Origin: Streptomyces sp. NBC_00250 | GTDB taxonomy: Bacteria > Actinomycetota > Actinomycetes > Streptomycetales > Streptomycetaceae | DNA: 64,000 nucleotides | Assembly: GCF_036192275.1 (NCBI RefSeq) | Contig: NZ_CP108088.1 | Location: 1,178,001 to 1,242,000, forward strand | Direction: 5' to 3' | Part shown: positions 1,485 through 23,479 of the stretch, piece after piece | Layout of the letters: each line of letters opens with the position of its first letter | How positions within the stretch are numbered: the stretch's first letter is position 1 | Notes under the pieces: model-generated | Database searches by the model: none | Seen by the model: only the letters and a program-made list of their open reading frames with translations | Told to the model about the DNA's origin: nothing | Translations under genes and position numbers: made by a program

Positions 1485-1587
1485 GAGCCGCCAACCGCGG
1501 CTCGCCCGCGCCACCGGGCCAACCGCCGTCCAGCTGGCCGCACCACCGCGTGCCCCGGAGAAGATCTGACGCACGCTGCGGCAGAGG

Positions 1588-3167: not shown

Positions 3168-3285
3168 GATCCTTCTCCTCGCCTTCCAGGCGGACGCCCG
3201 GCGCCGGAGCGTCGCCGCCCGCTACGAAGCCGGCCTCGTGGCCTGGGGCTTCCTGGCGCCCGCCTCCTTCGTCGGTTCTGGCATC

Positions 3286-4407
3286 TCAGGCTCGGGAGTC
3301 GCTCGTGATACGCGCGCACTGGGTGACCACCGAGGCGAGACTGCCATGCGTACGCAGGAGCTCGCGCTGGATGCGAGCCCCATTGCCCCCTTCCAGCAGA
3401 CCGGCGACGCCTTCGCGGACCCGTTCGTCGTCGCCGCTCTCGACCAAGGCGTCCCTAGCATGGGCGTACAGCGCCTGGACGACCTCCGCCGCCGACGCCT
3501 CCCTCATGGTTTCGGGATGGAGGAGGGGGCCGTCCACACCCGAACGGCCGGCCTGCCATGCCGCCAGCCGCAACAGGTCCGTGCTGACGCGGGAGGGCGG
3601 ATCTCCTTCGCGCCAAGCCTTGGCGGCGGTCTCGACGAGGGCGCGCACCAAGGCGGCGAGGAGTACGGGCGTCGACGCTTCGAGGCACACGTCCGCCACT
3701 CTGACTTCCACCGTGGGGTAGGTGGCCGACAGCCGGGCGTCGAAGTAGATCATCCCCTCGTCGCGCAGGACTCCGGTGTCGAGCATGGCACGGACCTGCT
3801 CGTGGTAGCGATCGGCGGAGCCGAAGACGTCCATCGGGCCGGCCGAGGGCAGCCTGTTCCACACCCGGCTGCGATAACTCGCGTACTTGCTGTCCTGCCC
3901 CTGCCAGAAGGGCGAGTTCGCGCTCATCGCGGTCAGAACGGAAAGCCAGGGCCGGATCCTGTCCAGTACGGCGACACCTTCCTCGTCGGACTCGACCGAG
4001 ACGTGGACGTGGCAGCCGCAGGTGAGTTGCTCCTGCGCGGTCAGGCCGAACTGTTCGCCCAGCCATGCGTATCGCTTGCCGGCGTTCAGCGAGGGCCGGG
4101 CGGGTAGCGGCGAGGTGGCGAGGGCCGCCACGAGGGCGCCTGCGGACGCGGCGTGCCGACCGGCCTCGGCGCGGCACCGGGTGACTTCGTCCCCGAGTTC
4201 GCCCATCTCCGTCACCGGTTTGGTGGCGAACTCCAGCTGTTCCTTCTGCAGTTCCTTCTCGAAGGCGTGTCCTGGCGCGCCATCACCGCGCGGCCGCTGC
4301 CCTGCGGACCGGTCCGCAGCCGCGAGGACAGCACCGGCCAGAGCGAGGGGCTCCCCACTGCGGGCATGCACGAGAAGCAGCTCTTCTTCCACGCCCACGC
4401 TTCTCAT
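3286..4407 (-). CDS. YbdK-type carboxylate-amine ligase (glutamate-cysteine ligase family 2)
   Basis: The 373-residue protein begins MRSVGVEEELLLV, the GVEEE-L-x-V signature of the GCS2/YbdK family. It also has EQLEFATKPV and CGCHVHV, which supply ATP/metal-binding acidic and His residues, and a C-terminal SDSRA. The length fits YbdK enzymes (about 370). Family members ligate Glu with Cys weakly in vitro; true substrates are mostly unknown. This is distinct from EgtA at 41912. It sits among stress genes (DUF2188, CsbD), so a role in stress metabolism is possible but inferred. Confidence 0.85.
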   Translation of the reverse strand: MRSVGVEEELLLVHARSGEPLALAGAVLAAADRSAGQRPRGDGAPGHAFEKELQKEQLEFATKPVTEMGELGDEVTRCRAEAGRHAASAGALVAALATSPLPARPSLNAGKRYAWLGEQFGLTAQEQLTCGCHVHVSVESDEEGVAVLDRIRPWLSVLTAMSANSPFWQGQDSKYASYRSRVWNRLPSAGPMDVFGSADRYHEQVRAMLDTGVLRDEGMIYFDARLSATYPTVEVRVADVCLEASTPVLLAALVRALVETAAKAWREGDPPSRVSTDLLRLAAWQAGRSGVDGPLLHPETMREASAAEVVQALYAHARDALVESGDDERVREGVAGLLEGGNGARIQRELLRTHGSLASVVTQCARITSDSRA

Positions 4408-4496
4408 TCAGCCACCGCCGTTCGCCCCTCTCCACAAGCGGGAACGCGCCGTCTCACATGGGCGCCTCCTCGACCACGACTCACGCCGCCGGCGGA

Positions 4497-4670
4497 TCAG
4501 CCCTTGAAGACGTCCTTGACCTTCTCCTTGGCCTGGCGGGCGTTCCCCTTCGCCTTCTCGGCACGCCCCTCGGCGGTCAGGCGTTCGTTGCCCACCGCAC
4601 GGCCCGCCGTCTCCTTGACCTTGCCCTTGGCCTGCTCGGCCTTGGCCCGACCCTTCTCCTTGCCCGACAT
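4497..4670 (-). CDS. CsbD-family stress protein
   Basis: This is a 57-residue, Lys/Ala/Glu-rich protein starting MSGKEKGRAKAEQAKGK, with an internal duplicated pattern (GKVKETAGRAVGN and GNARQAKEKVKDVFKG) typical of CsbD proteins. CsbD proteins are general-stress (sigma-B-type) proteins of unknown mechanism. I chose the ATG at 4670 because the frame upstream has no family similarity and an AGGGAAG site precedes it. A broken paralogue is found at 8046-8211. Confidence 0.85.
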   Translation of the reverse strand: MSGKEKGRAKAEQAKGKVKETAGRAVGNERLTAEGRAEKAKGNARQAKEKVKDVFKG

Positions 4671-5259
4671 GATCGACCACTTCCCTAACAAACTAGGACT
4701 ACCCGTACATATTAGTTCTGACTGGGCATGCCCATCGAGAAACCTGAGGAAGCACCGTTCCGCACCACCGTGCCGAACGAGAGACCCAACACGGCGAGCC
4801 GGGCGATGCCGAACGCCGTCGTCGTCCGCCACACCTGACCGGACAGAGCGAACAACCGCTCGATTCCCACCTGGCCACCTGGCCACCCCCGAGACCGTCC
4901 CCGAGGCGCTGCCCGAGCCCGTTCCCGCCACCCGTACCCGCAATTTCCCTCCTCACAATTCCCGCATGGACACCGCGGAGGTTGCGGGCCCGCGCCAGCG
5001 CCTCCGCCCACGCCCCGACAGGTGATGCGGACGCACCGAGCAAGCGGACGACGTAGCTCCGCGCAACAATGGAGCAGTGTCCTGACACGAAGGAGTCCCC
5101 TCCCGTATGTCGGCGGCCGAGCAAGGCAGGCAACCCCGTTCCCTCCGAGTCGAGTCGCAGGAAACGGCGGACGCCGGTGAGGGGTCGCGATCCCGGACAC
5201 TCGTCCCCTCGTCATCGACGACGTTTCCCACCCCGACGGCCCCAGAGATCCGGAGGCTC
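4671..5259. other. 589-bp stretch with no confident gene
   Basis: This divergent region lies between csbD (minus) and the methyltransferase (plus) and must hold both promoters. On the minus strand a short frame, 4712-4870, could start at a GTG with an AGGTGG site. It would encode about 52 residues with a hydrophobic segment (AFGIARLAVLGLSFGTVV), but I cannot place it in a family. Nothing else convincing was seen. Confidence 0.4.
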
Positions 5260-5949
5260 ATGGTGCCCACTACGGCTCTGAGCTTCGGCATGCCTCCCAG
5301 ACGGCTCATCGCCCTGCCTGGCGTCTATCGCCCGCAGGCCGACACCTGGCTCCTCGCGGAGGCTCTCTCCCACGAACGGATGGACGCCGACACCGACGTG
5401 CTGGACATCGGCACCGGAACAGGTGCTCTCGCCCTGTCCGCAGCGCGTACCGGGGCCCGGGTCGAAGCGGTCGACGTCTCGTGGCCCGCGGTCATCGCGG
5501 CCGGCCTGAACGCCTTCCGGCAGGGACTGCCACTGAGAGTGATGCACGGCGATTTCGCGACCCGTACCCAGGGCCGACGCTTCGACGTCGTCCTCACCAA
5601 CCCGCCCTACGTTCCCTCGGCGCGACCCCGGCCGCCGCCGCACGGGGCGGCCCGCGCCTGGGACGCCGGCCCCCACGGGCGGAGAGTCATCGACCGCGTC
5701 TGCGCGTGTGCGCCGGCCTTGCTGCGACCCGGCGGGGTCCTGCTGATGGTGCACTCCGGGATGTGCGGTCCACCGGCCACCGTGGCCCGTCTGGAAGCGG
5801 GCGGGCTGGCCGCCGAGGTGACGGCGCGTACCTCGGTCCCGTGGGGTCCGGTACTGCGTGCGCGGCGGACCTGGCTGCGGAGGCAGGGCCTGGCGGGCGA
5901 CGGCGCCGAGCGCGAGGAACTGGTGATCATCCGTGCCGCGCACCCCTGA
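5260..5949 (+). CDS. HemK/MTQ2-like class I SAM-dependent methyltransferase
   Basis: The 229-residue product has the SAM-binding motif VLDIGTGTGALAL, the acidic strand end VEAVDVS, and the (N/D)PPY catalytic motif in VVLTNPPYVPS. This is the hallmark of HemK/PrmC and MTQ2-type N-methyltransferases acting on Gln or related amide nitrogens. The N-terminal PrmC helical domain is absent, so it is closer to the short MTQ2 type. The ATG at 5260 is preferred because of the CGGAGG just upstream and the GVYRPQADTW start of the family core. Its last 17 bases overlap the CDGSH gene, so the two are translationally coupled. The target is unknown. Confidence 0.75.
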   Translation: MVPTTALSFGMPPRRLIALPGVYRPQADTWLLAEALSHERMDADTDVLDIGTGTGALALSAARTGARVEAVDVSWPAVIAAGLNAFRQGLPLRVMHGDFATRTQGRRFDVVLTNPPYVPSARPRPPPHGAARAWDAGPHGRRVIDRVCACAPALLRPGGVLLMVHSGMCGPPATVARLEAGGLAAEVTARTSVPWGPVLRARRTWLRRQGLAGDGAEREELVIIRAAHP

Positions 5950-6259
5950 CGGTGTGGCGCCGTGCGCCATCACCGCGGCGGCCGCCGAAGCACCCTCCGC
6001 CACGGCCCCGTCGGCCACCTCCGCGACCGCCCCGATCCCCTCACGTCCCGCCCGCCGGATCGCCATCGACCCGCAGGGCCCGATCCTGATCGAGGGCCCG
6101 GTGGAGATCGTGCTGGCCGACGGAACTCTCGCCCGATCCGATCGGTTCATGGTCGCGGTCTGCATGTGCCGCCGCAGCCGTGCGTATCCCTGGTGCGACA
6201 CCAGCCACCGATCCCGCGAGCGAGCCGTCGCGCCCACCGAGGACGGGAGACCCCGATGA
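5933..6259 (+). CDS. CDGSH iron-sulfur domain protein
   Basis: The 108-residue product carries one CDGSH motif near the C-terminus: CMCRRSRAYPWCDTSH, i.e. C-x-C, P-x-C-D and a ligand His, which binds a redox-active [2Fe-2S] cluster. The preceding segment (IAIDPQGPILIEGPVEIV) matches the usual domain start; the first 40 residues are low-complexity Ala/Pro. It starts at a GTG inside the methyltransferase gene and its stop overlaps the ATG of the oxygenase-like gene (ATGA). Tight coupling suggests it passes electrons to, or assists, that oxygenase; this is inference. Confidence 0.85.
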   Translation: MPRTPDGVAPCAITAAAAEAPSATAPSATSATAPIPSRPARRIAIDPQGPILIEGPVEIVLADGTLARSDRFMVAVCMCRRSRAYPWCDTSHRSRERAVAPTEDGRPR

Positions 6260-7302
6260 CCCCTCCCAGCCCGAGCGCCCCGGACACCACCACCGGCCCC
6301 CGCCTCGCCGCCGCGCGGGGCGACCTGTCGAGCGCCGTGGAGAGAGCCTTGCGGACCGACCGGCCACCCGCGTACACCGAGGCCAGCATCCGAAGAGCGG
6401 ACCCTTGGGGAGAAGACCTCCAGCTCGCGCTGTACCTGCTGTACGAACTCCACTACCGGGGCTTCGAGGGTGTCGAAGACGATCGCGAATGGGACCCGGA
6501 CCTGCTCCGTCTGCGGCAGGAGTCGGAATCCCTGTTCCTCGACGCGCTGCGCGCCACACTCACCGGTGGGCCCCGATCCGTCGAGGAAGCCTTCGCCCCG
6601 CTGCTCGTCGAACAGGTGAATCCGTCCGACAGCGTCACCCACTACCTGGAAACCGAGGGCGATCTGTGGCAGCTGCGCGAGTACGCCGCCCTGCGCTCCC
6701 TCTACCACCTCAAGGAGGCGGACCCGCACGCCTGGGTCATCCCGAGGCTGACCGGCCGAGCCAAGGCCGCGATGGTGGCCGTCGAGTACGACGAGTTCGG
6801 CGCCGGTCACCCCGAACGCATTCACGCGCAGCTCTTCGCGGACCTCATGACCGACCTCGACCTGGATCCGACCTACGGCCACTACCTGGACCACGCCCCC
6901 GCCCCGCTGCTCGCCACGGTCAATCTGATGTCCCTCTTCGGACTCCACCGGGCCCTGCGCGGAGCCCTGGTCGGCCACTTCGCCTGTGTCGAGGTCACCT
7001 CGCCTCCCGGCTCCCGAAGGCTCGCCAAGGCCATGCGCCGCTGCGGCGCGGGGCCCGCCGCCGAGCACTTCTACGCAGAGCACGTCGAAGCCGACGCCGT
7101 CCACGAACAGGTCGTACGGCGTGAGGTCATCGGCGGCCTCCTCGCCGACGAACCCGCACTGGAGCCGGACATCGCCTTCGGGTGCGAGGCCACCGTCCTG
7201 CTCGAGAACGAACTCGGCGCCCACATCCGCGAAGCCTGGAGGTCGGGGCGCTCAGCGCTCCGCAGTCCCCTGCTGCCTACGGAGCCGAGGAGCCGAACGT
7301 GA
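6256..7302 (+). CDS. haem-oxygenase-like iron-containing redox enzyme (HDO family)
   Basis: The 348-residue helical protein shows the ligand pattern of haem-oxygenase-like diiron/iron oxygenases: an E..H pair in LYELHYRGF (about residue 62), VEYDEFGAGHPERIH (about 176) and YAEHVEADAVHE (about 270). The family includes N-oxygenases and decarboxylases/desaturases of small molecules. The actual substrate cannot be read from sequence. The ATG overlaps the CDGSH stop and its own stop overlaps the GTG of a flavin reductase. The four genes 5260-7784 therefore form one coupled operon with two plausible electron-transfer partners for this enzyme. Confidence 0.8.
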   Translation: MTPPSPSAPDTTTGPRLAAARGDLSSAVERALRTDRPPAYTEASIRRADPWGEDLQLALYLLYELHYRGFEGVEDDREWDPDLLRLRQESESLFLDALRATLTGGPRSVEEAFAPLLVEQVNPSDSVTHYLETEGDLWQLREYAALRSLYHLKEADPHAWVIPRLTGRAKAAMVAVEYDEFGAGHPERIHAQLFADLMTDLDLDPTYGHYLDHAPAPLLATVNLMSLFGLHRALRGALVGHFACVEVTSPPGSRRLAKAMRRCGAGPAAEHFYAEHVEADAVHEQVVRREVIGGLLADEPALEPDIAFGCEATVLLENELGAHIREAWRSGRSALRSPLLPTEPRSRT

Positions 7303-7784
7303 CCGGCCTCGACGGCTTCACCGACGTGCTCGACTACCCGATGTACGCCGTCACGGCGGCAGCACACGGCGAGCAGGGCGGCTGCCTGGTGGGCTTCGCG
7401 TCACCATGCTCGATCGAGCCGCCCCGTTTCATGGTGTGGATCTCCACCGCCAACCGCACCTACCGCATCGCACGCCACGCCTCCCACCTCGCCGTACACG
7501 CCCTGCGCCGCGACCAGAAACAGGTCGCCGAGCTGTTCGGCGGGCGGACCGGCGACGACATCGACAAGTTCGGCAGGGTGGCCTGGCGGCCGGGAGAAGG
7601 CGGAGCGCCGGTACTGGACGACTCCTGCGCCTGGCTCGTGGGCCGGGTACAGGGCATCGTCGACGGAGGAGATCATGTCGGCTTCCTGCTCGCCCCCGTC
7701 GCGCAGAGCCCACCCGGCCCCGCAAGGCCGCCGCTGCTCCGGTTGAGTGACGTCGCCGACCTCTCACCAGGACACCCGGCCTGA
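7299..7784 (+). CDS. flavin reductase-like FMN-binding split-barrel protein
   Basis: The 161-residue product begins (GTG) with GLDGFTDVLDYPMYAVTAA and has CLVGFASPCSIEPPRFMVWIS. That is the loop-strand pattern of flavin reductase-domain proteins that bind FMN and use NAD(P)H. LAVHALRRDQKQVAELFGG follows as in that family. The start codon is fused to the stop of the oxygenase-like gene (GTGA), so translation is coupled. It is a good candidate reductant supplier in this operon, though a direct FMN-dependent activity of its own is possible. Confidence 0.75.
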   Translation: MTGLDGFTDVLDYPMYAVTAAAHGEQGGCLVGFASPCSIEPPRFMVWISTANRTYRIARHASHLAVHALRRDQKQVAELFGGRTGDDIDKFGRVAWRPGEGGAPVLDDSCAWLVGRVQGIVDGGDHVGFLLAPVAQSPPGPARPPLLRLSDVADLSPGHPA

Positions 7785-7889
7785 GATCACGGTGCCGGAC
7801 CGTCCCCGGCCGAAGCTCCGGTCCCGGAAGCCACGAGCGGAAGTGACGCCTACGCTGAGAGGGAATCGTCAGCGGAATCGGAGGACACC

Positions 7890-8045
7890 ATGATTGTCCT
7901 CGGCATCATCTTGCTCGTGATCGGCCTCGTGGCCGGCATCGGTATTCTCTGGACCATCGGGATCATCCTCGTGGTCATCGGCGCCATCCTCTGGATCCTC
8001 GGCGCGGTCGGTCACGAGGTCGGCGGACGCCGGCACTACTGGTAG
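7890..8045 (+). CDS. DUF6131-type 51-residue membrane protein
   Basis: The protein MIVLGIILLVIGLVAGIG continues as two hydrophobic helices (roughly residues 2-22 and 24-43) and ends in VGGRRHYW. Small two-helix proteins with this exact layout and RRHYW-type tail recur in Streptomyces and are annotated DUF6131; their function is unknown. A GGAGGACACC site lies just before the ATG. Its 3' end abuts the degenerate csbD copy on the other strand. Confidence 0.75.
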   Translation: MIVLGIILLVIGLVAGIGILWTIGIILVVIGAILWILGAVGHEVGGRRHYW

Positions 8046-8211
8046 ACAGCCTGCTGCGCCCTTGGCGCGGTCACGGACCGCCTCGCCCGCTTCCCGGGCC
8101 GTGCCCTCCATCTGGTCCGTCTCGCCTTCCGACTCCGGGCGCTTATGCCCGTCGCCTTCCGGCGGCTTCCTTCAGCTTGCCGTTCGACTTCTCCGCACTC
8201 TTGGCAGCCAT
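8046..8211 (-). pseudogene. csbD-like gene with two frameshifts
   Basis: The frame starts MAAKSAEKSNGKLKEAAG as an ordinary CsbD protein and then hits a stop because of a shift at the GGAAGG run. The expected continuation appears first as KATG in a second frame and then as HKRPESEGETDQMEGTARE followed by AGEAVRDRAKGAAG in a third. Two single-base indels therefore inactivate it. The intact paralogue is at 4497-4670. Confidence 0.65.
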
Positions 8212-8357
8212 GGCGGGACTGCTCCCTTCCGGCGGATCGGTTCCATCGGTCACGCCGGCCCCGCACCGGGAATCCCGCCCGTCGACGGAACGTCGTGATG
8301 AGGGCATGGGGCCGTGACGGCCTACGCCTTCCTCCCCGAGCCGGCGGAACGACTCGT

Positions 8358-9980
8358 TCAGAACGTGTTGCGGCGCCGCAGCCCCAGCGGACGGCCGTCC
8401 GGATCGACCAGGACGTGGTGCAGGGGGGTCGACAGCGCCCTCTGTGCCCCGGAGAGGTCCGGGGCTGTGTACCGGCGCAGACGGCCCGCCGGCCGCGGAC
8501 CACGGCGGCCGCCTTCGTGCCACGCGTCGAGCACGGCGGCAGCCTCCTCGAAGGCACCGAAGGCGGTCGCCGGGTCACACAGCACGTCGGGGTCCGCCGC
8601 CTGCTGCCCCTCGGCCCCCTGCACGTCGAGGTGCTCGCGCATGAGCCCCAGGCGCAGCTCCCGGGCGAAGACGCGTGCACCGTCTCCCAGTCCTCCGGGG
8701 TCGCGTGGCCACCGAGAGTCCGGGCGCTCATCGACGACGGCGCAGCTGAGTTCGGAGTCGTGGGTCCACGAGCGGAGGTTGATGTTGTCGGAGCCCACGG
8801 AGGCCCACACGTCATCGATCACGCACACCTTGGCGTGCACGTACACGGGGGTCCCGGCATGGTTCTCCAGTCCGTACACCGCGACCCTGTCGCCGCCCGC
8901 GCGACGCAGCTCGTCCAGGGCGGTGACCCGGCCGACCAGGTTCATGGGCCGGGTGAGCCGGCCGTCCTGCTCCGGGACCGTGGGGATGACTCCGATCATC
9001 AGCAGTCCGGGGTGCCTGGACAGGGCCCGCGCGAAGCAGGCCACGACCTTCGGCGACCACAGGTACTGGTCCTCGACGTAGATCAGTGCCCGGGCCCGGC
9101 GCAGCGCCTTGAGGTACCCCCGTGCGATGCTCCGCTCCCCGTCGGGGGCGAAGGGGTACCCGAGCAGCAGTCGGTTCGGATACGTGCGCAGCAGCTGCAC
9201 GGTGTGTGTGCCGCACGGAGCGGGATCGGCGACCTGCGGCGGCAGGCTGTCCGCGTCGGTGTCCTCCCGGTGCATCAGCGCGCGTAGGCGGGTGACCGGG
9301 CTGCGGCTGAGCGGGGCGGGGTCCTGCCATCGTTCGCGGAAAACTGCTTCGACATCCCCGACGACCGGGCCGCGCAGGGCGAGCTGGACGTCGTGCCACG
9401 GTGGGTGCGGACCGTAGGCGGAGGCCATGGGCAGGGACTGGCGGTCGCCGCGGTGGGTGTCATCATCGTTGCGGTTGCGGCAGAGATCGATTCCTCCGAC
9501 GTACGCCACGTCCAACTCCGGGCGGCCGGGGTGACGCAGCACCACCATCTTCTGGTGGTGCGAGCCGCCGGGCCGTACCCGCATGTCGAGCAGGCACTCG
9601 CCGCCCGCCTCCTCGATCTCCTTGCCGAAGCGGCGGTTCTCCTCCTGGCTGAACCGGAGACCGTCCAGGTGGGACCGCCAGAGCAGCCCCTTGACGACGA
9701 CGTGTCGCCTTGCCGCCCGGCACAGGACCGATCCGATCTCGGTACCCTCCCCGGCGAGCCGCTCCTCGGGATCGCCGCGCCAGTCGGTGAACAGAAGCAG
9801 GTCACCCGAGCGCATCTCGCGGATGGCCGCCAGGAGTTCCCCGAAGTACGCGGCGCCGTGGACCAGGGCGTGTGCCTGATTCCCGTCGGACCAGACCTTC
9901 CCGTCCGGGCGGCGGCTGTCCAGGCGCGTCGCGGTATTGCCGCGTTCACCGGGGGCCAGCAGCCACTCTGCGCGCGTCAC
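8358..9980 (-). CDS. phospholipase D family protein (two HKD motifs)
   Basis: The 540-residue protein has two PLD catalytic half-sites: HHQKMVVL with downstream VAYVGGIDL (His142/Lys144), and VHAKVCVIDDVWASVGSDN (His382/Lys384). PLD enzymes hydrolyse or transfer phosphodiesters through a His-phosphoenzyme; substrates range from phospholipids to nucleic acids. The GTG at 9980 is chosen over one nine codons upstream because a GGAGGG site sits five bases before it and the family usually starts at (M)TRAEWLL. No signal peptide is evident, so it is probably cytoplasmic. Confidence 0.85.
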   Translation of the reverse strand: MTRAEWLLAPGERGNTATRLDSRRPDGKVWSDGNQAHALVHGAAYFGELLAAIREMRSGDLLLFTDWRGDPEERLAGEGTEIGSVLCRAARRHVVVKGLLWRSHLDGLRFSQEENRRFGKEIEEAGGECLLDMRVRPGGSHHQKMVVLRHPGRPELDVAYVGGIDLCRNRNDDDTHRGDRQSLPMASAYGPHPPWHDVQLALRGPVVGDVEAVFRERWQDPAPLSRSPVTRLRALMHREDTDADSLPPQVADPAPCGTHTVQLLRTYPNRLLLGYPFAPDGERSIARGYLKALRRARALIYVEDQYLWSPKVVACFARALSRHPGLLMIGVIPTVPEQDGRLTRPMNLVGRVTALDELRRAGGDRVAVYGLENHAGTPVYVHAKVCVIDDVWASVGSDNINLRSWTHDSELSCAVVDERPDSRWPRDPGGLGDGARVFARELRLGLMREHLDVQGAEGQQAADPDVLCDPATAFGAFEEAAAVLDAWHEGGRRGPRPAGRLRRYTAPDLSGAQRALSTPLHHVLVDPDGRPLGLRRRNTF

Positions 9981-10376
9981 GTCGGCCCTCCAAGGTGCTC
10001 CCGCCACCGGCTGTGGCAGGCGGGGGATGCCTCATCCCGTTCGGCTCTCCCGAGCCTCGTCGGCACCCTCACCTTTCAGCGTCCCACTCCGGGGCGGCCT
10101 GCGGCTCACGCTGCCGGACGGTGTGCGCGCGGTGGCGGACCGGAGCGGATCACCCGTGCGACAGGCCGGGCACACACTGCGGGCACACTGGGGGCGCAGC
10201 CCGCACGGTAGGCGATCTCGCCCTTCCTGCCCATGACCCGGGTCGCTGCGTCGCGCGGGCGGGTGACCGGGGCGTACGTGTGCGTCCCGCTGCGGTGGGT
10301 GGAAGCCCTCCAGAGGGTCTATCTCTGTGCGCACTGGCAGGATGCGGTCCACGTCCTCCTGCGGTGCTCACGGAGT

Positions 10377-10772
10377 ATGACCCTGCAGCACCCTTCGGAA
10401 CGAGGAAGCAAAGGGCGAGGCCAGTTCGAACGCCTCGCGGAGCGAGCGTCGAATCTGACGAGCTCCCCTCTGTTCTTCTCGTTCTGCCTGCTGCTCGTCG
10501 GAGCCTTCATCGTGATCCATGCCGCGGGTTTGTCACTGAGCTGGCAGCTTCTTGTCGGGGACACCATGGTGTCGGTGACCCTGCTGCTGTTGGCGCTCCT
10601 CAAGAACGCCGAGCGGCGGGCAGACCGTGCTGTCCAGCGCAAGCTCGACGCGATTGCGCTGGCACTGTTGGAGGAACACCGACGTACTACTGGTGAGGTA
10701 TTCGACTCTCTCGAGGAGGCCATCGGTGATGCTCATCGCCTTCATATGACAATGATGCGGGGAACTCAGTAG
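10377..10772 (+). CDS. low-affinity iron permease-like small membrane protein
   Basis: The 131-residue product contains ASNLTSSPLFFSFCLLLVG, a first transmembrane segment, and then WQLLVGDTMVSVTLLLLALLKNAERRA. This matches the conserved part of the low-affinity iron permease family found as short forms in bacteria. The C-terminal third is a soluble amphipathic helix (KLDAIALALLEEHRRTTGE). The short bacterial members are assigned to this family by sequence only; iron transport is not established. The ATG at 10377 begins the family-like part. Confidence 0.7.
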   Translation: MTLQHPSERGSKGRGQFERLAERASNLTSSPLFFSFCLLLVGAFIVIHAAGLSLSWQLLVGDTMVSVTLLLLALLKNAERRADRAVQRKLDAIALALLEEHRRTTGEVFDSLEEAIGDAHRLHMTMMRGTQ

Positions 10773-10873
10773 GCGGCATCGTAGCCGCAGTCTCCGACGA
10801 GAATCGATGCGGGTGATCTCCTCGCCCTGCCCCAACGAGCCTCTGACCAGCATTTTTTGCATCCAAGCGAGCT

Positions 10874-10897
10874 CTGGGGAGACTCCGGGGAGAAACG
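10874..10897 (+). repeat. 24-bp repeat, copy B (partner at 1461-1484)
   Basis: The sequence begins CTGGGGAGACTCCGGGGAGA and differs from the copy at 1461 at two of 24 positions. It lies in the 262-bp gap between the iron-permease-like gene and the tandem TetR gene, i.e. at the border between the left accessory part and the sulfatase island. Around it no integrase or tRNA gene was recognised. Confidence 0.45.
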
Positions 10898-11034
10898 ACT
10901 GGCCTTACGGGTACGTCAGCCTCATGTCGGAGCAACGCGGGTTGCCGCTCGGCGGCATCTACGGGACCTGACGGCGTCGGGCTACATCACGGACAGTGCG
11001 ATCAGCGAAGGGCGGGGGGGCCAGGGACTCCCAC

Positions 11035-12216
11035 TCAGGCGGCTGCGGTCAGCAGCTGTGCGCGCCGTTCGTGGGACACGTTGTCGGCGAAGAGCTCGTT
11101 GAGCGCATGCAACAGCCTCTCGGGGATGTGGAGTTCGCTTTCGTACGAGGCATGGAGTTGCAGCCCGTCCCACAGCGCGATGAACCAGGCGGCCTCGGCG
11201 CGGGGGTTCAGATCGGGTCTGATCAGTCTCTGGGTCTGCAGTGAGTGGAGTTCGCTGGTGAGCGCGTCGAGGACGCGGGCGTAGCGGCTCGCGAAATGGG
11301 CGTGCGCGGGGTGGCCAGGGTCGATGGATTCGCACAGCAGCGCGGAGTAGAGCCGTACGCGGTCGGGGACCGTTTCGTTGTATACGGCCCTGCGGTAGAC
11401 GTTGGCGACCTTGTCGTAGGCGGTGACGGGAGTCAGGTAGGCCGTGTCCGCGTCGCGGTCGCGGCGATTGAGGATCGCCGCGAGGAGAGTTTCCTTGGAG
11501 TCGAAGTAGTACAGCAGGGTGCTGTGGTTCAGGCCGATGCCGGTGGCGATGGAGCGCAGACTGGTGGCTCGGTACCCGTGCTGGGCAAAGGCTGTCGACG
11601 CGGCGTCGAGGATCTCCTGTGTGCGGTCGTCCGATGCCGGTCGGCGATCGCTGGGCACGTGTGGCCGGCCGCTGGAGATCTTGGGGATCCAGTCGGCGGA
11701 GGCGCGCGTCCCTGACGTGCAGCGGCGGCCGCCGAGGTGAGCGTGTGTCACCTCGGCCGGGGAGATCTGATCGGGCAGGTAGGCGCTGAGGATCCGGAGG
11801 CCGTCCTGAGTGGCGACGTACTCGAGCGCCGAGCCCTCCTGCGCCGAGTCGACGGCGCTCCGTCGCTCGCGGCGGGTGCGCAGTGCGTCCGCGACGAAGG
11901 AGTGAGCGGGGTGGTCCGGCCCTGCGGCTTCTCCCAGCAGGGTGAGGTGGAGGCGGATGAGGTCGTCGCCGCTGGGCCCGGTCCGCCCTGCCGCTTCCGT
12001 GCGACTCCGCCAGCGTTCCAGCAGGGCTCGGAGCACATCCTCCTTCGAGGCGTAGTGCCGAAGGATCCCCGCGTGGGTCATGCCGATGTTCTTGGCCAGG
12101 GCGCGCAGCGTCGTGGCGGCATATCCACCGGCGGCGAAGGTCTCCTCGGCCGCGTCCAGGATCTGCTCGCGCCGCGCGACGCCCCTGCGGGACGGTGTGC
12201 CGCTGACGTGGGGCAC
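11035..12216 (-). CDS. tandem double TetR-family regulator (two DNA-binding domains in one chain)
   Basis: The 393-residue chain contains two complete TetR units. The first has REQILDAAEETFAAGGYAAT followed by IGMTHAGILRHYASKEDVL (residues 16-62). The second has TQEILDAASTAFAQHGYRAT followed by IGLNHSTLLYYFDSKETLL (about 198-245). Each is followed by a helical ligand-binding part; the first is short. One polypeptide with two HTHs could bind adjacent operators without dimerising with another chain. It is divergent from the MFS/GH2/sulfatase operon, with two matching dyads in the intergenic region, so it is the likely repressor of the island and of itself. Confidence 0.85.
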   Translation of the reverse strand: MPHVSGTPSRRGVARREQILDAAEETFAAGGYAATTLRALAKNIGMTHAGILRHYASKEDVLRALLERWRSRTEAAGRTGPSGDDLIRLHLTLLGEAAGPDHPAHSFVADALRTRRERRSAVDSAQEGSALEYVATQDGLRILSAYLPDQISPAEVTHAHLGGRRCTSGTRASADWIPKISSGRPHVPSDRRPASDDRTQEILDAASTAFAQHGYRATSLRSIATGIGLNHSTLLYYFDSKETLLAAILNRRDRDADTAYLTPVTAYDKVANVYRRAVYNETVPDRVRLYSALLCESIDPGHPAHAHFASRYARVLDALTSELHSLQTQRLIRPDLNPRAEAAWFIALWDGLQLHASYESELHIPERLLHALNELFADNVSHERRAQLLTAAA

Positions 12217-12280
12217 GGCGGCTCCCCCTTCTCGACGGTCGGTGACTCGGCGTGTCCGAGGCTAACAGTCAGATGTTTGT

Positions 12281-12312
12281 AACCAAGTGGTTGACGTTTG
12301 TTACCAGGTGGT
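12281..12312. promoter_or_regulatory. two ACCA-N2-TGGT operators in the divergent promoter
   Basis: AACCAAGTGGTT (12281-12292) and ACCAGGTGGT (12303-12312) are two dyads whose centres lie 21 bp apart, about two helical turns. They are embedded in a 20-bp imperfect direct repeat beginning GTTTGT. A TTGACG hexamer at 12291-12296 may be a -35 element. The position between the tandem TetR gene and the MFS gene makes them the probable binding sites of that regulator. Confidence 0.65.
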
Positions 12313-12378
12313 CAATCGTAGGCGGAGCAGACACCGGCAGGCGTGGAGCACTTCCCGCCAATGACCGAGAGGCATGGC

Positions 12379-13638
12379 ATGACACAGACGTCATCGGCCG
12401 TGAAAGCCCCCGATCCAGAGACACGCACCCGCGTCGACCGCAGGCTCGCGGCATCACTCGGCTTCGCTCAGTTCGGCTCTTTCCTGGTATGGGGGGCTGC
12501 TCCCACGGTGTTGCTCGCGCGGCACCTGGAGGAGATCGACCCGGCCAACAAGGAGGCCAACCTCGCGCTCGTGATCACGGTGGGCGCGGTGGTCTCGGTC
12601 TTCGCACAGCCGGTGTGGGGCCTGTTCTCGGACCGCTCACGCAGTCGGTTCGGCCGACGCGCGCCCTACATCCTGGCGGGTGCGTTCCTGGGTGCGGCCG
12701 GCCTGATCGCGACGGCCCTGTCGCACACGGTGATGACCGTGATCGTCTCGTGGTGTGTCGTGCAGGCCGCCGTGACCGGCGGCAACGGCGTCCTGGTCGC
12801 GATACTTCCCGACCGGGTTCCGGTCGCGGTGCGCGGCACCGTGTCCGCGGTGCTCGGCTTCGGCAGCATGGCCGGAATCCTCGGCGGGCAGGTACTCGCA
12901 TCCGCGCTGGTCCCGCACGGAATGCTGCTGACGTACGGGTGCGTCGCCGGCGTGCTCGTCCTCACGGCTGTGGTGTTCGTCATCGCGTGCCCCGACCCGG
13001 CCGCGCCGAGACGGGAGCGGTCCCGTCTGTCGCTCGCCGACCTGGTGCACGTGGTCTGGGTGAATCCGCGCCGGCATCCCGACTTCGCGTGGGCGGTCGT
13101 CAGCCGCATGTTCCTCCTGCTCGGCTACCACACGGTGGGCGCCTACCAGTTGTACATCCTCCAGGACTACGCGGGGCTGGGACGGGACGAGGCCCTCGCG
13201 GCCATTCCGACCGTGGGGCTCATCAGCCTCTCGGCCGGTCTGGTGGCGGTCCTCGTCTGCGGCCGCCTGTCGGACCGGCTGAACCGGCGCAAGCCGTTCG
13301 TCGCCGTCTCCACGGCGGTCATCGGGCTGGGTCTCGGGATGCCCTTCCTTATGCCCTCTCTGAACGGCGTCCTCATCTACGCGGCGCTCGCCGGCCTCGG
13401 CTTCGGCTGCTACCAGACCGTCGACACCGCACTCATCTCCGAGGTGCTCCCCTCGCAGGAGGACGCGGCCAAGGACCTCGGCGTGGCCAGCCTCGCCAGC
13501 CACGTGCCCCACGTCCTCGCCCCGGTACTGGCCGGACTGGTCGTCGTCCACTTCGGCTACCGGCCCCTGTTCGCGATGGCGTTCACGCTGTCGCTCCTCG
13601 GGGTCCTGTGCGTCCTGCCCATCAAGTCCGTCCGCTGA
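12379..13638 (+). CDS. MFS transporter, probable importer of the sulfated glycan
   Basis: The 419-residue protein has 12 predicted hydrophobic segments. It has the MFS loop motif in GLFSDRSRSRFGRRAP (between helices 2 and 3) and the repeated motif in GRLSDRLNRRKP after helix 8. It is a paralogue of the MFS protein at 36597; both end in nearly the same way (GFGCYxxVDTAL, then IKSVR/IRSVR). The ATG at 12379 has a GAGAGG site at good spacing and is preferred over two upstream ATGs. As first gene of the operon before GH2 and sulfatases it probably imports their oligosaccharide substrate. Confidence 0.85.
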   Translation: MTQTSSAVKAPDPETRTRVDRRLAASLGFAQFGSFLVWGAAPTVLLARHLEEIDPANKEANLALVITVGAVVSVFAQPVWGLFSDRSRSRFGRRAPYILAGAFLGAAGLIATALSHTVMTVIVSWCVVQAAVTGGNGVLVAILPDRVPVAVRGTVSAVLGFGSMAGILGGQVLASALVPHGMLLTYGCVAGVLVLTAVVFVIACPDPAAPRRERSRLSLADLVHVVWVNPRRHPDFAWAVVSRMFLLLGYHTVGAYQLYILQDYAGLGRDEALAAIPTVGLISLSAGLVAVLVCGRLSDRLNRRKPFVAVSTAVIGLGLGMPFLMPSLNGVLIYAALAGLGFGCYQTVDTALISEVLPSQEDAAKDLGVASLASHVPHVLAPVLAGLVVVHFGYRPLFAMAFTLSLLGVLCVLPIKSVR

Positions 13639-18208
<4,570 letters not shown>

Positions 18209-18315
18209 CGCGGACCGGACGTCCCCGGACGGACCGGACCCGACCCGCCCGACCCGCCCGACCCGACTCGGCCACAGAAGCTGATCGCGAACCACAGAAA
18301 CGGAGAACAGAAAGC

Positions 18316-19989
18316 ATGGACGCCGACGTCATCGTCGTCGGGGCCGGACTCGCCGGCCTGGTGGCCGCCCATGAACTGACCAGCCGAGGCCGGAAGGTCG
18401 CCCTTGTCGACCAGGAGGGCCCGAACAACCTCGGCGGGCAGGCGTACTGGTCCTTCGGCGGGCTGTTCCTCGTCGACTCGCCCGAACAACGACGCCTGCG
18501 CGTCAAGGACTCCCTCGACCTCGCGTGGAGCGACTGGCAGGGCAGCGCGGGCTTCGACCGGCTCGACGACGAGGACGCCTGGGCGGTTCGCTGGGCGCGC
18601 GCCTACGTCGAGTTCGCCGCAGGGGAGAAGCGGCCTTGGCTCACCGGCCACGGCATCCGCTTCCTTCCCACTGTCGGCTGGGCCGAGCGCGGCGGCCTGC
18701 GGGCCGGCGGCCACGGCAACTCCGTCCCCCGTTTCCATGTCACCTGGGGCACCGGCACCGGCATCGTCGAGCCTTTCGCCGGCTCCGCCCAGCAGGCGGC
18801 CTCGGCCGGCCTGCTCACCTTCCACCATCGCCACCGCGTCGACGAACTCGTCGTCGAAGGAGGCACCGTGTCGGGGGTGCGTGGGCAGCACCTGGCCGAC
18901 GACCCGGCCCCGCGCGGGGTCACCACCAGCCGGGAGACGACGGGCCCGTTCGAACTCACCGCCCAGGCCGTCATCCTCACCACCGGCGGCATCGGCGCCG
19001 ACCACGACCTCGTACGACAGCACTGGCCCGAACGGCTCGGCACGCCACCGACACAGATGGTGACCGGCGTGCCCGCCTACGTGGACGGACGGATGCTCGA
19101 CATCAGCGCCCGCGCCGGCGCCCGGCTCGTCAACCGCGACCGCATGTGGCACTACACCGAGGGGCTGCGGAACTGGGACCCCGTCTGGCCCGGACACGGC
19201 ATCCGGATCCTGCCCGGCCCCTCCCCCCTGTGGTTCGACGCCCTCGGCCGCCGCCTGCCCGACCCGTGTCTGCCCGGCTACGACACCCTGGGCACCCTGC
19301 GGCACCTGCGCACGACCCCCGACATCGCCGCACACGACCACTCCTGGTTCATCCTCACCCAGAGGATCATCGAGAAGGAGTTCGCCCTCTCCGGATCCGA
19401 ACAGAACCCGGACATCACCGCCAAGGACCGGGCGGCGTTCCTGCGCACCCGCCTGTTCGGCAAGGGCGCCCCCGGCCCCGTCGCCGCGTTCATGGAGCAC
19501 GGCGCCGACTTCGTCGTCGCGAACACACTCGACGAACTCGTCGGCGGGATGAACGAGCTCACCGACCGGCCGCTCCTCGACTCCGATCACATCCGGCGGC
19601 AGATCGAGGCCCGCGACCTCCAGATCGCCAACCCCTACAGCAAGGACGCCCAGATCCAGGGCATCCACAACGCCCGCCGCTACCTCGGCGACCGCCTGGG
19701 CCGCGCGACCGTCCCCCACCGCATCCTCGACCCGGCGGCCGGCCCGCTGATCGGCGTGAAGCTGCACGTTCTGACCCGTAAGACCCTCGGCGGCATCCAG
19801 ACCGACCTCGACTCGCGAGCGCTCGGCCCTGGCGGCCGACCCGTCACCGGCCTCTTCGCGGCAGGCGAGGTCGCCGGCTTCGGCGGCGGAGGCGTCCACG
19901 GCTACAACGCCCTCGAAGGCACCTTCCTCGGCGGCTGCCTCTTCAGCGGCCGCCAAGCCGGCCGCGCCGCCGCCGCGGCCGTCTGCTGA
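18316..19989 (+). CDS. FAD-binding dehydrogenase (fumarate reductase/KsdD-like superfamily)
   Basis: The 557-residue flavoprotein begins MDADVIVVGAGLAGLVAA, the Rossmann dinucleotide-binding motif, followed by VDQEGPNNLGGQA. It ends with GLFAAGEVAGFGGGGVHGYNALEGTFLGG, the C-terminal FAD-binding segment of the fumarate reductase/3-ketosteroid dehydrogenase superfamily. The HGNSVPRFHVTWGTG and RDRMWHYTEG segments mark the actinobacterial KsdD-like dehydrogenase subgroup, whose substrates are unknown. Its place between two sulfatases suggests it oxidises or reduces a sugar released by them. No signal peptide is present. The start has a GGAG site ten bases upstream. Confidence 0.85.
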   Translation: MDADVIVVGAGLAGLVAAHELTSRGRKVALVDQEGPNNLGGQAYWSFGGLFLVDSPEQRRLRVKDSLDLAWSDWQGSAGFDRLDDEDAWAVRWARAYVEFAAGEKRPWLTGHGIRFLPTVGWAERGGLRAGGHGNSVPRFHVTWGTGTGIVEPFAGSAQQAASAGLLTFHHRHRVDELVVEGGTVSGVRGQHLADDPAPRGVTTSRETTGPFELTAQAVILTTGGIGADHDLVRQHWPERLGTPPTQMVTGVPAYVDGRMLDISARAGARLVNRDRMWHYTEGLRNWDPVWPGHGIRILPGPSPLWFDALGRRLPDPCLPGYDTLGTLRHLRTTPDIAAHDHSWFILTQRIIEKEFALSGSEQNPDITAKDRAAFLRTRLFGKGAPGPVAAFMEHGADFVVANTLDELVGGMNELTDRPLLDSDHIRRQIEARDLQIANPYSKDAQIQGIHNARRYLGDRLGRATVPHRILDPAAGPLIGVKLHVLTRKTLGGIQTDLDSRALGPGGRPVTGLFAAGEVAGFGGGGVHGYNALEGTFLGGCLFSGRQAGRAAAAAVC

Positions 19990-20038
19990 CGCCCGTACGC
20001 ACCACCAGACCCATGCCCAGCCCCCAACAGGAGGTTCC

Positions 20039-20992
20039 ATGTCCGCTTGCTGCACTCCGTCAGGCGGCGCACGCTCCATGCCGATGCCGGTCACCGCGAC
20101 GGGCGTGGGAGCGTCGGGCCACGACCGGGCGGAGATGATCCCGCTCTCCGGCGGCGAGTTCCTCATGGGCACGGACGACAGCGAGGGATACCCGGAGGAC
20201 GGCGAGGGCCCTGTCCGCAAGGTCCGTGTCTCGCCGTTCCTGATCGACGCCCACGCGGTGAGCAACGACCGGTTCGAAGCCTTCGTCGCGGCCACCGGCT
20301 ACCGTACGGAGGCCGAACGTATCGGGTGGTCGTACGTCTTCGCCGGGTTCCTGCCCGCGGCCCTGCGCCGTGTTTCGCCCAGGCCCGAAGCCACGCCGTG
20401 GTGGTGCGGGGTGACGGGAGCGGACTGGCGGTCCCCGGAGGGACCGGGCAGTTCCCTGCGAGGCCGTGGTGACCACCCGGTCGTGCACGTCTCGTGGAAC
20501 GACGCACAGGCGTACTGCACCTGGGCAGGCAAGAGGCTGCCCACCGAAGCCGAATGGGAGTACGCCGCGCGCGGCGGCCTGGAGCAGCGCCGTTACCCCT
20601 GGGGGGACGAACTCGACCCGGACGGCACGTTCCGCTGCAACATCTGGCGCGGGCAGTTCCCGTCCAGGAACACCGCGGCCGACGGCTACCGCGGCACCTG
20701 CCCGGTGGACGCCTTCCAGCCCAACGGCCACGGCCTGTACAACATGGCCGGCAACGTGTGGGAGTGGTGCTCCGACTGGTGGTCGACCGGCCATGGCACC
20801 ACCGCGCCCCTCGTTGATCCACAGGGCCCCGCGACGGGTACCTCAAAGGCCATGCGGGGCGGCTCCCACATGTGCCACGCGTCGTACTGCAACCGCTATC
20901 GCGTCGCCGCCCGCACGGCCAACGCCGTCGACGCCTCGGGCGGGAACACGGGTTTCCGCTGTGTGCGGACCCTCGCCGCCCACGATGCCTGA
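20039..20992 (+). CDS. formylglycine-generating enzyme for the neighbouring sulfatases
   Basis: The 317-residue protein has the FGE-sulfatase domain (IPLSGGEFLMGTDD to TGFRCVRTL) with WNDAQAYCTWAGKRLPTEAE and NMAGNVWEW. The decisive feature is GGSHMCHASYCNRYR: Cys279 and Cys284 match the copper-binding active-site pair of aerobic FGE. EgtB-type relatives lack this pair. It therefore should oxidise the Cys of C-x-P-x-R in the sulfatases at 16739 and 21034 to formylglycine in the cytoplasm. AGGAGG lies just before the ATG. A dedicated FGE inside a catabolic operon means the island carries its own activation system. Confidence 0.92.
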   Translation: MSACCTPSGGARSMPMPVTATGVGASGHDRAEMIPLSGGEFLMGTDDSEGYPEDGEGPVRKVRVSPFLIDAHAVSNDRFEAFVAATGYRTEAERIGWSYVFAGFLPAALRRVSPRPEATPWWCGVTGADWRSPEGPGSSLRGRGDHPVVHVSWNDAQAYCTWAGKRLPTEAEWEYAARGGLEQRRYPWGDELDPDGTFRCNIWRGQFPSRNTAADGYRGTCPVDAFQPNGHGLYNMAGNVWEWCSDWWSTGHGTTAPLVDPQGPATGTSKAMRGGSHMCHASYCNRYRVAARTANAVDASGGNTGFRCVRTLAAHDA

Positions 20993-21033
20993 CTCATCGA
21001 CACCTCCCGAACATCCACAGCCAGGAGTTTCCC

Positions 21034-22599
21034 TTGCGCATCATCTACGTGGACGTGGACACGCTCCGCGCCGACCACACCACCCCCTACGGCTATCACC
21101 GTCCGACCACTCCGAACCTCCAGAAGCTCGCCGACAAGTCGGTCGTCTTCGACCGCTACTACTGCTCCGACTCACCGTGCCTGCCCTCCCGGGCCGCGCT
21201 GACGAGCGGCCAGTTCGGCATCACCAACGGAGTGATCGGCCACTACGGCGCCGACGCACAGTTCCGCCTCGAAGCGGGACACGGCCCCGAGCCGCACCGG
21301 CCGCTCCTCGGCCAATGGCTCGGATGGGGCGACCACTACACCGCCTCGATCTCCGTCTTCGCCGAACGCCACCGCGCGTACTTCTTCCACGGCAACTTCC
21401 GCGAGTCGATCCGCGCCAGCGCCAACTGGGGCGACGAGGAGGCCCCCGACATCAACGGAGCGGCCGTCGACTGGCTGCGCCGGCACAAGGACGAGGAGAA
21501 CTGGTACCTCCACCTCACCTACTGGGAGCCGCACACCAACTACACCCAGCCCGCCGAGTGGACCGAGAAGATGGCAGCCTCCGGGCCCGTGCAGGCGTGG
21601 CCCGACGAGGAGACCATCGCCGCGCACGCCGAGATCTACGGGCCGCGCAGCGCCCTGGACCTCCACCACTCGCTGAAGAACCCCCGAGGCACCTCCCCGG
21701 TGCCCCACAACATGCCCGACGCGGTCGCCTCACGGGCCGACTTCGAGCACCTGGTCAACGGCTTCGACGGAGCCATCAGCTACTGGGACCACTACTTCGG
21801 GCAGCTCATGGACACCCTGGAGGAGCTGGGCATCGCCGGCGACACCGCCGTGATCGTCAGCGCCGACCACGGAGAGTCCTTCGGCGAGCTGGGCATGTAC
21901 GCCGAGCACGGCATGGCCAGCGAACCCGTCCACCGGCTCCCCCTCGTCGTCTACTGGCCCGGCCTCACGGACGAACTTCCCGACGAGGCCCGCCACAACG
22001 ACGCGCTCCTCTACAACATCGACCTGGCCCCGACCCTCGCCGAACTCATCGGCCTGGACAAGCCCGCCGGATGGCAGGGCACCTCCTTCGCCCCCGCCCT
22101 GCGCGGCGAACGGATCGACTCCCGCGAGTACCTGGTCCTCGGCCACGGCGCCATGACGTACCAGCGGGCCGTCCGGACCCGCGACCACCTCTACATCCGC
22201 ACCTACCACCCAGGCACCTTCCGCACCGAGTGGGAACAGCTCTTCCACCTCACCGAGGACCCCTACCTCACCCACAACCTCATCGACGAGGAGCAGGAAC
22301 TCGCCACTCTGATGCGTTCCCATCTCGCCGAATGGTGGAACGAGTACGCCGGCCGGCCCGGCTGCCTGCCCGACCCCATGCAGGCCAACCTCCAGACCGG
22401 ACCCATCTACTACAGCCAGCCCGGTCCCTACGCCCAGCACCTCAGGGACACCGGCCGCGCCCACCTGGCCGACCACCTGGAGCAGCGACTCGCCACCCTC
22501 TCCGTACCGGTCCCCTGGCACGCCCCCCACGAGCCCCGCTCACCGGAGATCCTCCAGGGGTGGCTAGCCCACTTCGGACGGCGAGCAGCCGCGACCTGA
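21034..22599 (+). CDS. second type I sulfatase, cytoplasmic
   Basis: The product (521 residues from the TTG start) begins RIIYVDVDTLRADHTTPYG, with metal Asp residues, and has SPCLPSRAALTSGQFG, where Cys49 in C-x-P-x-R is the formylglycine precursor. SADHGESFGELGMY (about residue 276) supplies the distal metal ligands. The TTG start is chosen because AGGAG lies six bases upstream and homology begins there; longer in-frame starts run through the FGE gene. It shares only the fold with the sulfatase at 16739, so the two probably act on different sulfate esters of one substrate. Confidence 0.9.
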   Translation: MRIIYVDVDTLRADHTTPYGYHRPTTPNLQKLADKSVVFDRYYCSDSPCLPSRAALTSGQFGITNGVIGHYGADAQFRLEAGHGPEPHRPLLGQWLGWGDHYTASISVFAERHRAYFFHGNFRESIRASANWGDEEAPDINGAAVDWLRRHKDEENWYLHLTYWEPHTNYTQPAEWTEKMAASGPVQAWPDEETIAAHAEIYGPRSALDLHHSLKNPRGTSPVPHNMPDAVASRADFEHLVNGFDGAISYWDHYFGQLMDTLEELGIAGDTAVIVSADHGESFGELGMYAEHGMASEPVHRLPLVVYWPGLTDELPDEARHNDALLYNIDLAPTLAELIGLDKPAGWQGTSFAPALRGERIDSREYLVLGHGAMTYQRAVRTRDHLYIRTYHPGTFRTEWEQLFHLTEDPYLTHNLIDEEQELATLMRSHLAEWWNEYAGRPGCLPDPMQANLQTGPIYYSQPGPYAQHLRDTGRAHLADHLEQRLATLSVPVPWHAPHEPRSPEILQGWLAHFGRRAAAT

Positions 22600-22666
22600 G
22601 GCGCGGGCCCCGGCCCCCTTCCTCGCCCGCGTCCCGCTCATCACGTCCCGACCTCTGGAAGCCCTC

Positions 22667-23045
22667 ATGAACGCACCTCCGGCATCCCCGGCGCGGCCCT
22701 CTCGCCGGCAGAACAGGCGGCGCTCACCTCGGGCGGCAGTCGCTGAACCACCACGCCCGTACGAGACGTGGTCCGAGCGCTGACCTCTCGGACGGCCCCC
22801 ACGGGATCCAGCGTCCGGGAGGCGATGCCATCGAGGCTGTCGTCTCGCGCCACAGCCTCCCGGCCACCTGCTTCCCGCCCGCCGTCACCCTCGGCTCCTC
22901 CTTGGACCCGGAACTCGCGCACCGCGTCGGCGCGGCCGTGGCACGCGAGGCTTCGGCCCTCGGTGTCTCCGTGGTGCTCGGCCCAGGCATCAACATCAAG
23001 CGCAGTCCACTGTGCGGACGGAACTTCGAGCACTTCTCCACGCAG
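22667..23045 (+). pseudogene. GH3 beta-glucosidase, N-terminal remnant
   Basis: A GH3 N-terminus is readable: LSPAEQAALTSGG, then after damage LSDGPHGIQRPGGDAIEAVV. Next come SLPATCFPPAVTLGSSLDPE and ALGVSVVLGPGINIKRSPLCGRNFEHFS. These are the opening strands of the GH3 TIM-like domain up to the GxxNIxRxPxxGRNFE motif. The frame is broken by an early stop and the remaining 600 or more residues are missing. The match ends abruptly at about 23040, where a minus-strand fragment begins. It was probably the last enzyme of the glycan operon before a deletion. Confidence 0.75.
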
Positions 23046-23147
23046 GATCTCCGCCACCCTCAGCGCGGTCCACCAGTCCTCGTACCGGATACCCGCCTTG
23101 TCTGCCGGCCCACCGACAACCCCACGTGCATCAATTCCCCAGGACAC
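23032..23147 (-). pseudogene. N-terminal stub of a dsDNA-nuclease/NTPase-type gene
   Basis: From a GTG at 23147 the minus strand reads VSWGIDARGVVGGPADKAGIRYEDWWTALRVAEILRGE in pieces; the conserved core is GGPADKAGIRYEDWW. This opening (KAG-x-RYE-x-WW) resembles the start of Streptomyces proteins with an N-terminal dsDNA nuclease-like domain often fused to NTPases. The match is lost at about 23035, exactly at the end of the GH3 remnant. It is a stub left by a deletion or recombination. The family call rests on a short segment. Confidence 0.4.
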
Positions 23148-23479
23148 GACAGCAGACTCCTCACCCGCAGGAGCCAGCAACCAAATGAGCCTATTCGCTC
23201 CGCTGTCGTCCGTAATCCGGCATGCGGAAGTGCACCACGATGCTCATCGGCGAGAACACGGCACACAGCTCGGCAAGCCGCGACGACGTCACCTCGCTGG
23301 CACGGAGACGGCCGTGGCGCTGGCGCCGGCGTCACCGCCGACGAGCCGTAGAAGCACGCCGCATCGGCTGCGCCGCTGGTAGGGGCTGCGAAACCACCCC
23401 TCCCAGTGGCACACCGAAAGCAGGAGACATGGTCGAGCGAACCTTCTTCTGGGATCGCCCACGAGGAGAAAGGCGCAGG
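23148..23479. other. gap with a possible gene tail on the minus strand
   Basis: On the minus strand a frame ends SRLAELCAVFSPMSIVVHF and MPDYGRQRSE before a stop at about 23209, just ahead of the nuclease-like stub. It reads like the C-terminus of a real protein, cut off upstream by a stop at about 23340, and may be the tail of a gene once in operon with that stub. I could not assign it. No other feature is evident. Confidence 0.3.

Follow-up and report, generated by a model that had tools for sequence, protein, structure and literature searches.

What would a streptomycete do with two sulfatases, a β-galactosidase and a dehydrogenase that all appear to stay inside the cell? The question is raised by a seven-gene locus of Streptomyces sp. 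NBC_00250, which we analysed within a 64,000-nucleotide window of contig NZ_CP108088.1 (positions are window coordinates; the operon genes lie at 11035-22599). We think it probable that the locus serves substrate-induced, cytoplasmic catabolism of small sulfated β-glycosides. An earlier note on this DNA had described six co-directed genes, for a major facilitator superfamily (MFS) transporter, a LacZ-type glycoside hydrolase of family 2 (GH2), two sulfatases, a flavin adenine dinucleotide (FAD)-dependent dehydrogenase and a true formylglycine-generating enzyme (FGE), together with a divergent regulator. This layout was confirmed with open reading frames (ORFs) as gene models, the gene caller's set lacking the FAD and FGE genes:

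11035..12216, minus strand: double TetR regulator, 393 residues, two complete TetR units fused; predicted operon repressor
12379..13638, plus strand: MFS transporter, 419 residues, ATG start refined to 12379; PF07690 at 152.5 bits, PF13347 at 57 bits
13669..16746, plus strand: LacZ-type GH2 β-galactosidase, 1025 residues
16739..18208, plus strand: SulfA, S1-type sulfatase, formylglycine site Cys53 (CAPSR)
18316..19989, plus strand: FAD-dependent dehydrogenase of the PRK12834 family, 557 residues
20039..20992, plus strand: FGE, Cys279/Cys284
21034..22599, plus strand: SulfB, S1-type sulfatase, formylglycine site Cys49 (CLPSR), TTG start

The seven reading frames are intact and free of internal stops, and their third-position GC content is 0.86-0.92. 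From the MFS gene to SulfB, the first gap measures 30 bp, the next pair of genes overlaps by 8 bp, and the remaining gaps are, in order, 107, 49 and 41 bp. The SulfB start was refined to the TTG at 21034, which has CAGGAG upstream and gives an N terminus that matches the family consensus exactly (MRIIYVDVDTLRADH).

The active-site cysteines of the FGE and of both sulfatases lie where the earlier note had placed them. Both sulfatases carry the PF00884 domain (Pfam scan; 150.5 bits for SulfA and 121.5 bits for SulfB, cut-off 25), and the cysteine, serine and arginine of the C-x-P-S-R motif are invariant in the family alignments (51 rows for SulfA, 49 for SulfB). Modelled structures of both proteins have the S1 sulfatase fold. 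Choline-sulfatase activity, raised earlier as a contrary case, finds no support, as SulfA (154.7 bits) and SulfB (103.7 bits, scored with an upstream in-frame extension) both fall far under the curated cut-off of TIGR03417 (433.45 bits). The GH2 protein exceeds the cut-offs of PF02837, PF00703, PF02836, PF16353 and PF02929 (sugar-binding, core, TIM-barrel, domain 4 and small-chain domains); it is best called LacZ-like, and not the named NCBIfam equivalog NF052611, because it reaches 687.9 bits against a cut-off of 999. The FAD enzyme was assigned to the PRK12834 dehydrogenases by NF009472 (943.8 bits, cut-off 476), and its superfamily includes ketosteroid dehydrogenases. Crude hydropathy gave 8 (strict) or 13 (loose) membrane-like stretches for the MFS protein.

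The FGE matches PF03781 with 285.1 bits. Its best match in the PDB, 5nxl (409 bits), bears a kinase name given by its depositors, and the next eleven of the twelve best rows, at 367-408 bits, carry the label FGE or sulfatase modifying factor 1. The genome encodes three FGEs that have the cysteine pair, the two outside the operon adjoining other sulfatases, so that the operon FGE as the genome's only one was rejected, and a 'self-contained' module in the sense of one that needs its own activating enzyme was not borne out. With two other true FGEs available, the operon copy is a convenience and not clearly a necessity in this genome. The third FGE is found, with two further sulfatases, near oligopeptide-type ABC transporter-like genes (L022:5617-16723, at 8.64 Mb of the same genome).

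We assessed export by proxies (domain start, motif position and N-terminal hydropathy). The Pfam sulfatase match begins at residue 5 of SulfA, and 27 residues precede the GH2 domain. A motif that we take to surround the first metal ligand starts at residue 9 in 48 of the 49 SulfB-family rows (the remaining row has no match) and at residues 10-17 in 47 of the 51 SulfA-family rows (one at residue 43, three with no match). The maximal 12-residue hydropathy near the start is 0.60 for SulfA, 0.58 for SulfB, 0.92 for GH2 and 0.97 for the FGE; a Tat-like sulfatase of the same genome with an RR start, used as the single control, reaches 1.76. The FAD enzyme has a value of 2.61, which we read as the hydrophobic strand of a Rossmann fold. 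By these proxies none of the catabolic enzymes has an apparent signal peptide, in line with the earlier note; they look cytoplasmic, which suggests that uptake precedes an intracellular desulfation. Sulfatases of the cytoplasm are not in themselves a novelty, because PMC6388578 reports 141 and 106 soluble sulfatases with a predicted cytoplasmic location in two strains. The genes form a probable operon in one direction, and the cytoplasmic logic proposed in the earlier note is probably right.

The gene set can be arranged into a pathway in which the MFS carrier would import a small sulfated β-glycoside and the co-encoded FGE would turn Cys53 of SulfA and Cys49 of SulfB into formylglycine in the cytoplasm. 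The two sulfatases may then take sulfates off different positions, after which the LacZ-type GH2 would free an exposed β-galactosyl unit and the FAD enzyme might oxidise or reduce the freed aglycone or sugar. Expression would be held back by the double TetR protein, which is envisaged to sit on the two asymmetric operators, offset by 21 bp, and to repress the divergent promoter as long as neither substrate nor product is bound.

This regulator consists of two PF00440 stretches in one chain, a feature absent from the earlier note, as are the GH3 remnant downstream of SulfB and the other two FGEs of the genome. Its halves are 30% identical to each other, whereas the N and C halves share 48% and 56% with their counterparts in Nocardioides turkmenicus; because each half is closer to its Nocardioides counterpart, the fusion is older than the split between the two copies. 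Such proteins are rare: a search of a 5.8-billion-sequence collection, in which 7994 candidates were scored, gave only 41 homologues at E 1e-30 or better, and a match at 1e-45 occurred in 1 of 394 class genomes, namely the window's own. Nothing relevant to fused TetR pairs appeared among the literature matches listed. Between the regulator and the MFS gene lie two pseudo-palindromes of the pattern TGTWACCANNYGGKYRA:

12278..12294, plus strand: predicted operator 1, TGTAACCAAGTGGTTGA
12299..12315, plus strand: predicted operator 2, TGTTACCAGGTGGTCAA, beginning 21 bp after the start of operator 1

The pattern was derived from the sites of the window and of a Nocardioides turkmenicus stretch (L044), so that it matches those sites by construction; its exact matches in the 9.27-Mb genome are the two promoter sites only, and 0.01 matches are expected in the shuffled window with one mismatch allowed. 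In L044, tandem sites at 5536 and 5557, with an equal 21-bp spacing, stand upstream of an MFS-GH2 operon, along with a third, looser copy. It is this tandem arrangement and its repetition in L044, rather than rarity, that is informative about the operators. The two unlike TetR halves may read unlike half-sites of asymmetric operators. A further exact match in Nocardioides turkmenicus (L044:75-91) lies upstream of a glycosyltransferase-like gene.

Most of what is known about the catabolism of sulfated glycans comes from marine and gut bacteria, whose systems use secreted enzymes. The utilisation loci of Bacteroidetes combine sulfatases, a glycosidase, a transporter and a regulator, and the window operon likewise holds all four in one locus. 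It differs from them in having no evident export signals, uptake by an MFS carrier, TetR-type control and an FGE inside the operon, and the Pfam scan of the seven operon genes showed no SusC/SusD pair. Word searches of open papers returned no title or abstract start describing such an operon. A compact cytoplasmic module with its own FGE and with homologues in Nocardia and Nocardioides would suggest that soil actinomycetes use sulfated glycosides as a nutrient and that this has been overlooked. The regulator and its predicted operators offer a handle for finding the inducer, and the rare double TetR provides an example on which single-chain regulators can be studied.

How far is this gene set conserved? 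SulfB was found at 1e-60 or better in 7 of 295 genus genomes, the window's own included. We compared 22 related SulfB stretches of at most 25.6 kb each, which are not independent (L037 and L048 come from one genome and L020 from the window's own). An FGE at 50% identity or more is present in 15 of the 22, in agreement with the idea that FGE is often near SulfB; SulfC (at least 60%) is present in 12, a glycoside hydrolase of family 3 (GH3) in nine, SulfA (at least 50%) in seven, GH2 in three and the FAD enzyme in three. Among the SulfA-bearing stretches, SulfA is cut at the stretch ends in L036, L045 and L046. The synteny comparison proposed earlier brought together homologues of all seven genes, plus GH3 and SulfC, in L044, which shares with the window the MFS carrier, GH2, SulfB, SulfA, FGE, the FAD enzyme and the tandem operators, and which alone among the related stretches has a full-length double TetR. 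It differs in gene order and in its intact GH3 and nearby SulfC. The other GH2-bearing stretches are L037 and L048 of Nocardia albiluteola, where GH2-MFS-GH3-SulfB stand on two scaffolds that share 21,533 identical bases, either through a duplication or through a repeat in the assembly. In Kitasatospora putterlickiae, matches to SulfA (72%) and to the regulator (61% over 54% of its length), both with 58,666 bases given as the longest contig, hint at another copy of the module.

A second type of SulfB locus occurs in Streptomyces (L020, L040-L043 and L080/L081, the last two being large linear plasmids). It has a SulfB at 76-77% identity, an FGE, SulfC and an MFS carrier of another type; unlike the window, its FGE is divergent (54-55% identical), its regulator is of the PadR type, and the stretches compared contain no GH2, SulfA or double TetR. 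The genome of NBC_00250 itself holds one such locus at about 890 kb (889-893 kb, L020:13297-17200), with a SulfB at 76%, the divergent FGE, SulfC and MFS. Also in this region, at 877.8 kb (L020:1746-2447), a sulfatase match in two pieces is apparently broken.

The window retains a trace of a second glycosidase downstream of SulfB:

22785..23039, plus strand: GH3 β-glucosidase gene fragment, 185 bp after SulfB

Over 85 columns this stretch shares 60% identity with the Nocardia albiluteola GH3 (residues 48-131 of that protein), an enzyme encoded there between MFS and SulfB. The match scores 99.4 bits, whereas the highest score among 50 mononucleotide shuffles is 26.6 bits. The surrounding frame is open for 226 codons (22671-23351), and no second GH3 piece over 20.4 bits was found in 22551-24000. 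As only 85 columns resemble an enzyme of about 750 residues, we regard the match as a truncated fragment. The ancestral module probably encoded a glucosidase beside the galactosidase, an arrangement that L044 retains. Against PDB entry 7pjj, the L044 GH3 scores 1043.7 bits. That entry is BcpE2, a Streptomyces scabiei β-glucosidase, which frees glucose from all plant heteroside types tested (PMC9426481). GH3 enzymes of this type, at least 70% identical to that of L044, are also found in L038, L039 and L107, whereas the remnant in the window stems from a more distant GH3; the nearest full-length relative of the L044 enzyme in the window's own genome lies elsewhere, at 64%. Because the window fragment belongs to a GH3 more distant than that of L044, heterosides are a lead and not a result.

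Several results weigh against our reading of the locus. GH2 accompanies SulfB in only three of the 22 stretches, two of these from one genome, and 13 have neither a GH2 nor a GH3 of these types. The closest SulfB proteins among the matches listed are from Streptomyces, at 96% and 86%. When one mismatch is allowed, the operator pattern has three genome matches against six for a backward control, so that its rarity alone proves little. Of the 198 other genomes of the genus that were searched, 70 carry a copy of the FAD enzyme at 79-84% identity, which led us to reject this enzyme as module-specific, and a paralogue at 64% lies elsewhere in its own genome. Among 29 short FAD loci (1.5 kb on each side, read by eye), a sulfatase was seen only in G185, itself a SulfB genome; several of the 29 have a TetR-like neighbour and one has no called genes. 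With copies so widespread, and a sulfatase near the G185 copy only, the role of the FAD enzyme in the operon is weak, and it was probably recruited. Finally, comparisons of fold and sequence assign neither sulfatase to a subfamily or to a single substrate class.

Three alternatives were weighed. Sulfur scavenging, in which many organic sulfate esters would be desulfated in the cytoplasm and neither the glycosidase nor the dehydrogenase would take part, would suit the 13 of 22 SulfB stretches that lack a GH2 or GH3 of these types, and SulfA is close in the sequence and fold comparison to SpAS1 and SpAS2, known as broad aryl sulfatases. We judge it distinctly improbable: the predicted regulator is a TetR protein with exact sites at this promoter alone and is not a known sulfur-starvation control, and GH2, MFS and both sulfatases are kept together in Nocardioides. 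The earlier note had named oligosaccharides from sulfated galactan, mucin or keratan as examples, a reading in which galactose-specific sulfatases would act before LacZ; we consider this unlikely. GH3 is a commoner partner of SulfB than GH2 in the related stretches (nine against three). The top fold ranks of SulfA and SulfB mix substrate classes, and the ranking, which speaks for the families in those lists only, was rejected as decisive for substrate.

The locus might instead break down sulfated heterosides of plants, such as the sulfates of aryl, flavonoid or terpenoid glycosides, and use the FAD enzyme on the aglycone, a reading that appears rather doubtful. It would accord with the BcpE2-like GH3 of L044 and with the ketosteroid dehydrogenases in the FAD superfamily; on the other side, the window holds a GH3 fragment only, the GH3 that this fragment resembles (L037) is 38% identical in its best piece to that of L044, and the FAD enzyme is widespread. 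Glucosinolates were considered and fit poorly, as a glucosinolate carries one sulfate and the module two or three sulfatases. We stay with cytoplasmic catabolism of small sulfated β-glycosides. A more specific version of it we advance tentatively: a mobile actinobacterial module for a wholly intracellular 'desulfate, then deglycosylate' route, directed at polysulfated small β-glycosides (probably plant or algal heterosides) and controlled by a single-chain, pseudo-heterodimeric TetR whose different halves read different operator halves.

The history of SulfB was followed in two trees. The 23-row tree, which lacks close Streptomyces homologues and whose window row may stem from a gapped alignment, groups the window SulfB with those of L044 and L037/L048 (support 97/91); the window-Nocardia fork has 86/55, and the nearest row by path and identity is from Streptomyces boluensis (82%). 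The 45-row tree, with 22 of 120 listed homologues added and the ungapped window protein, places it with Streptomyces proteins P0014 and P0015 (96% and 86% identity; support 97/98), inside a nine-row group (91/93) that further contains Streptomyces P0016, Nocardia and a Nocardioides-Kitasatospora pair (100/100). SulfB proteins of the GH2-bearing loci thus fall in one group across three families in both trees, a mixing that suggests horizontal transfer. In the FGE tree, the window's place inside its eight-row group was not resolved.

Comparison with G004, a genome labelled as the same species, revealed a difference that includes the whole operon:

1421..23469, no strand: segment of 22,049 bp absent from G004, where its flanks are 11 bp apart

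Window positions 1-1420 and 23470 onward, which carry a TAP-like α/β hydrolase gene and a pirin gene at the segment's edges, are thus nearly contiguous in G004. Among six relatives compared at the pirin region, both flanks are adjacent only in G004, and the other five match the pirin side only. As this comparison itself gives no polarity, an insertion rather than a deletion rests on the SulfB trees. Together, the 22-kb difference and the family mixing lend the module the mobile look that the earlier note had expected, and homologous modules are present in several families; the operon was probably acquired horizontally. No integrase was noticed among the ORFs scanned, a scan that was not exhaustive. 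Three blocks inside 2869-8049 match the end region of a separate 397-kb G004 contig at 86-92%, with gaps between them, and the segment is composite on this account.

Elsewhere in the window, on our reading and without a dedicated scan, 41756-46207 holds a candidate gene set for ergothioneine biosynthesis, in which the FGE-domain match at 43696-44475 would be EgtB.

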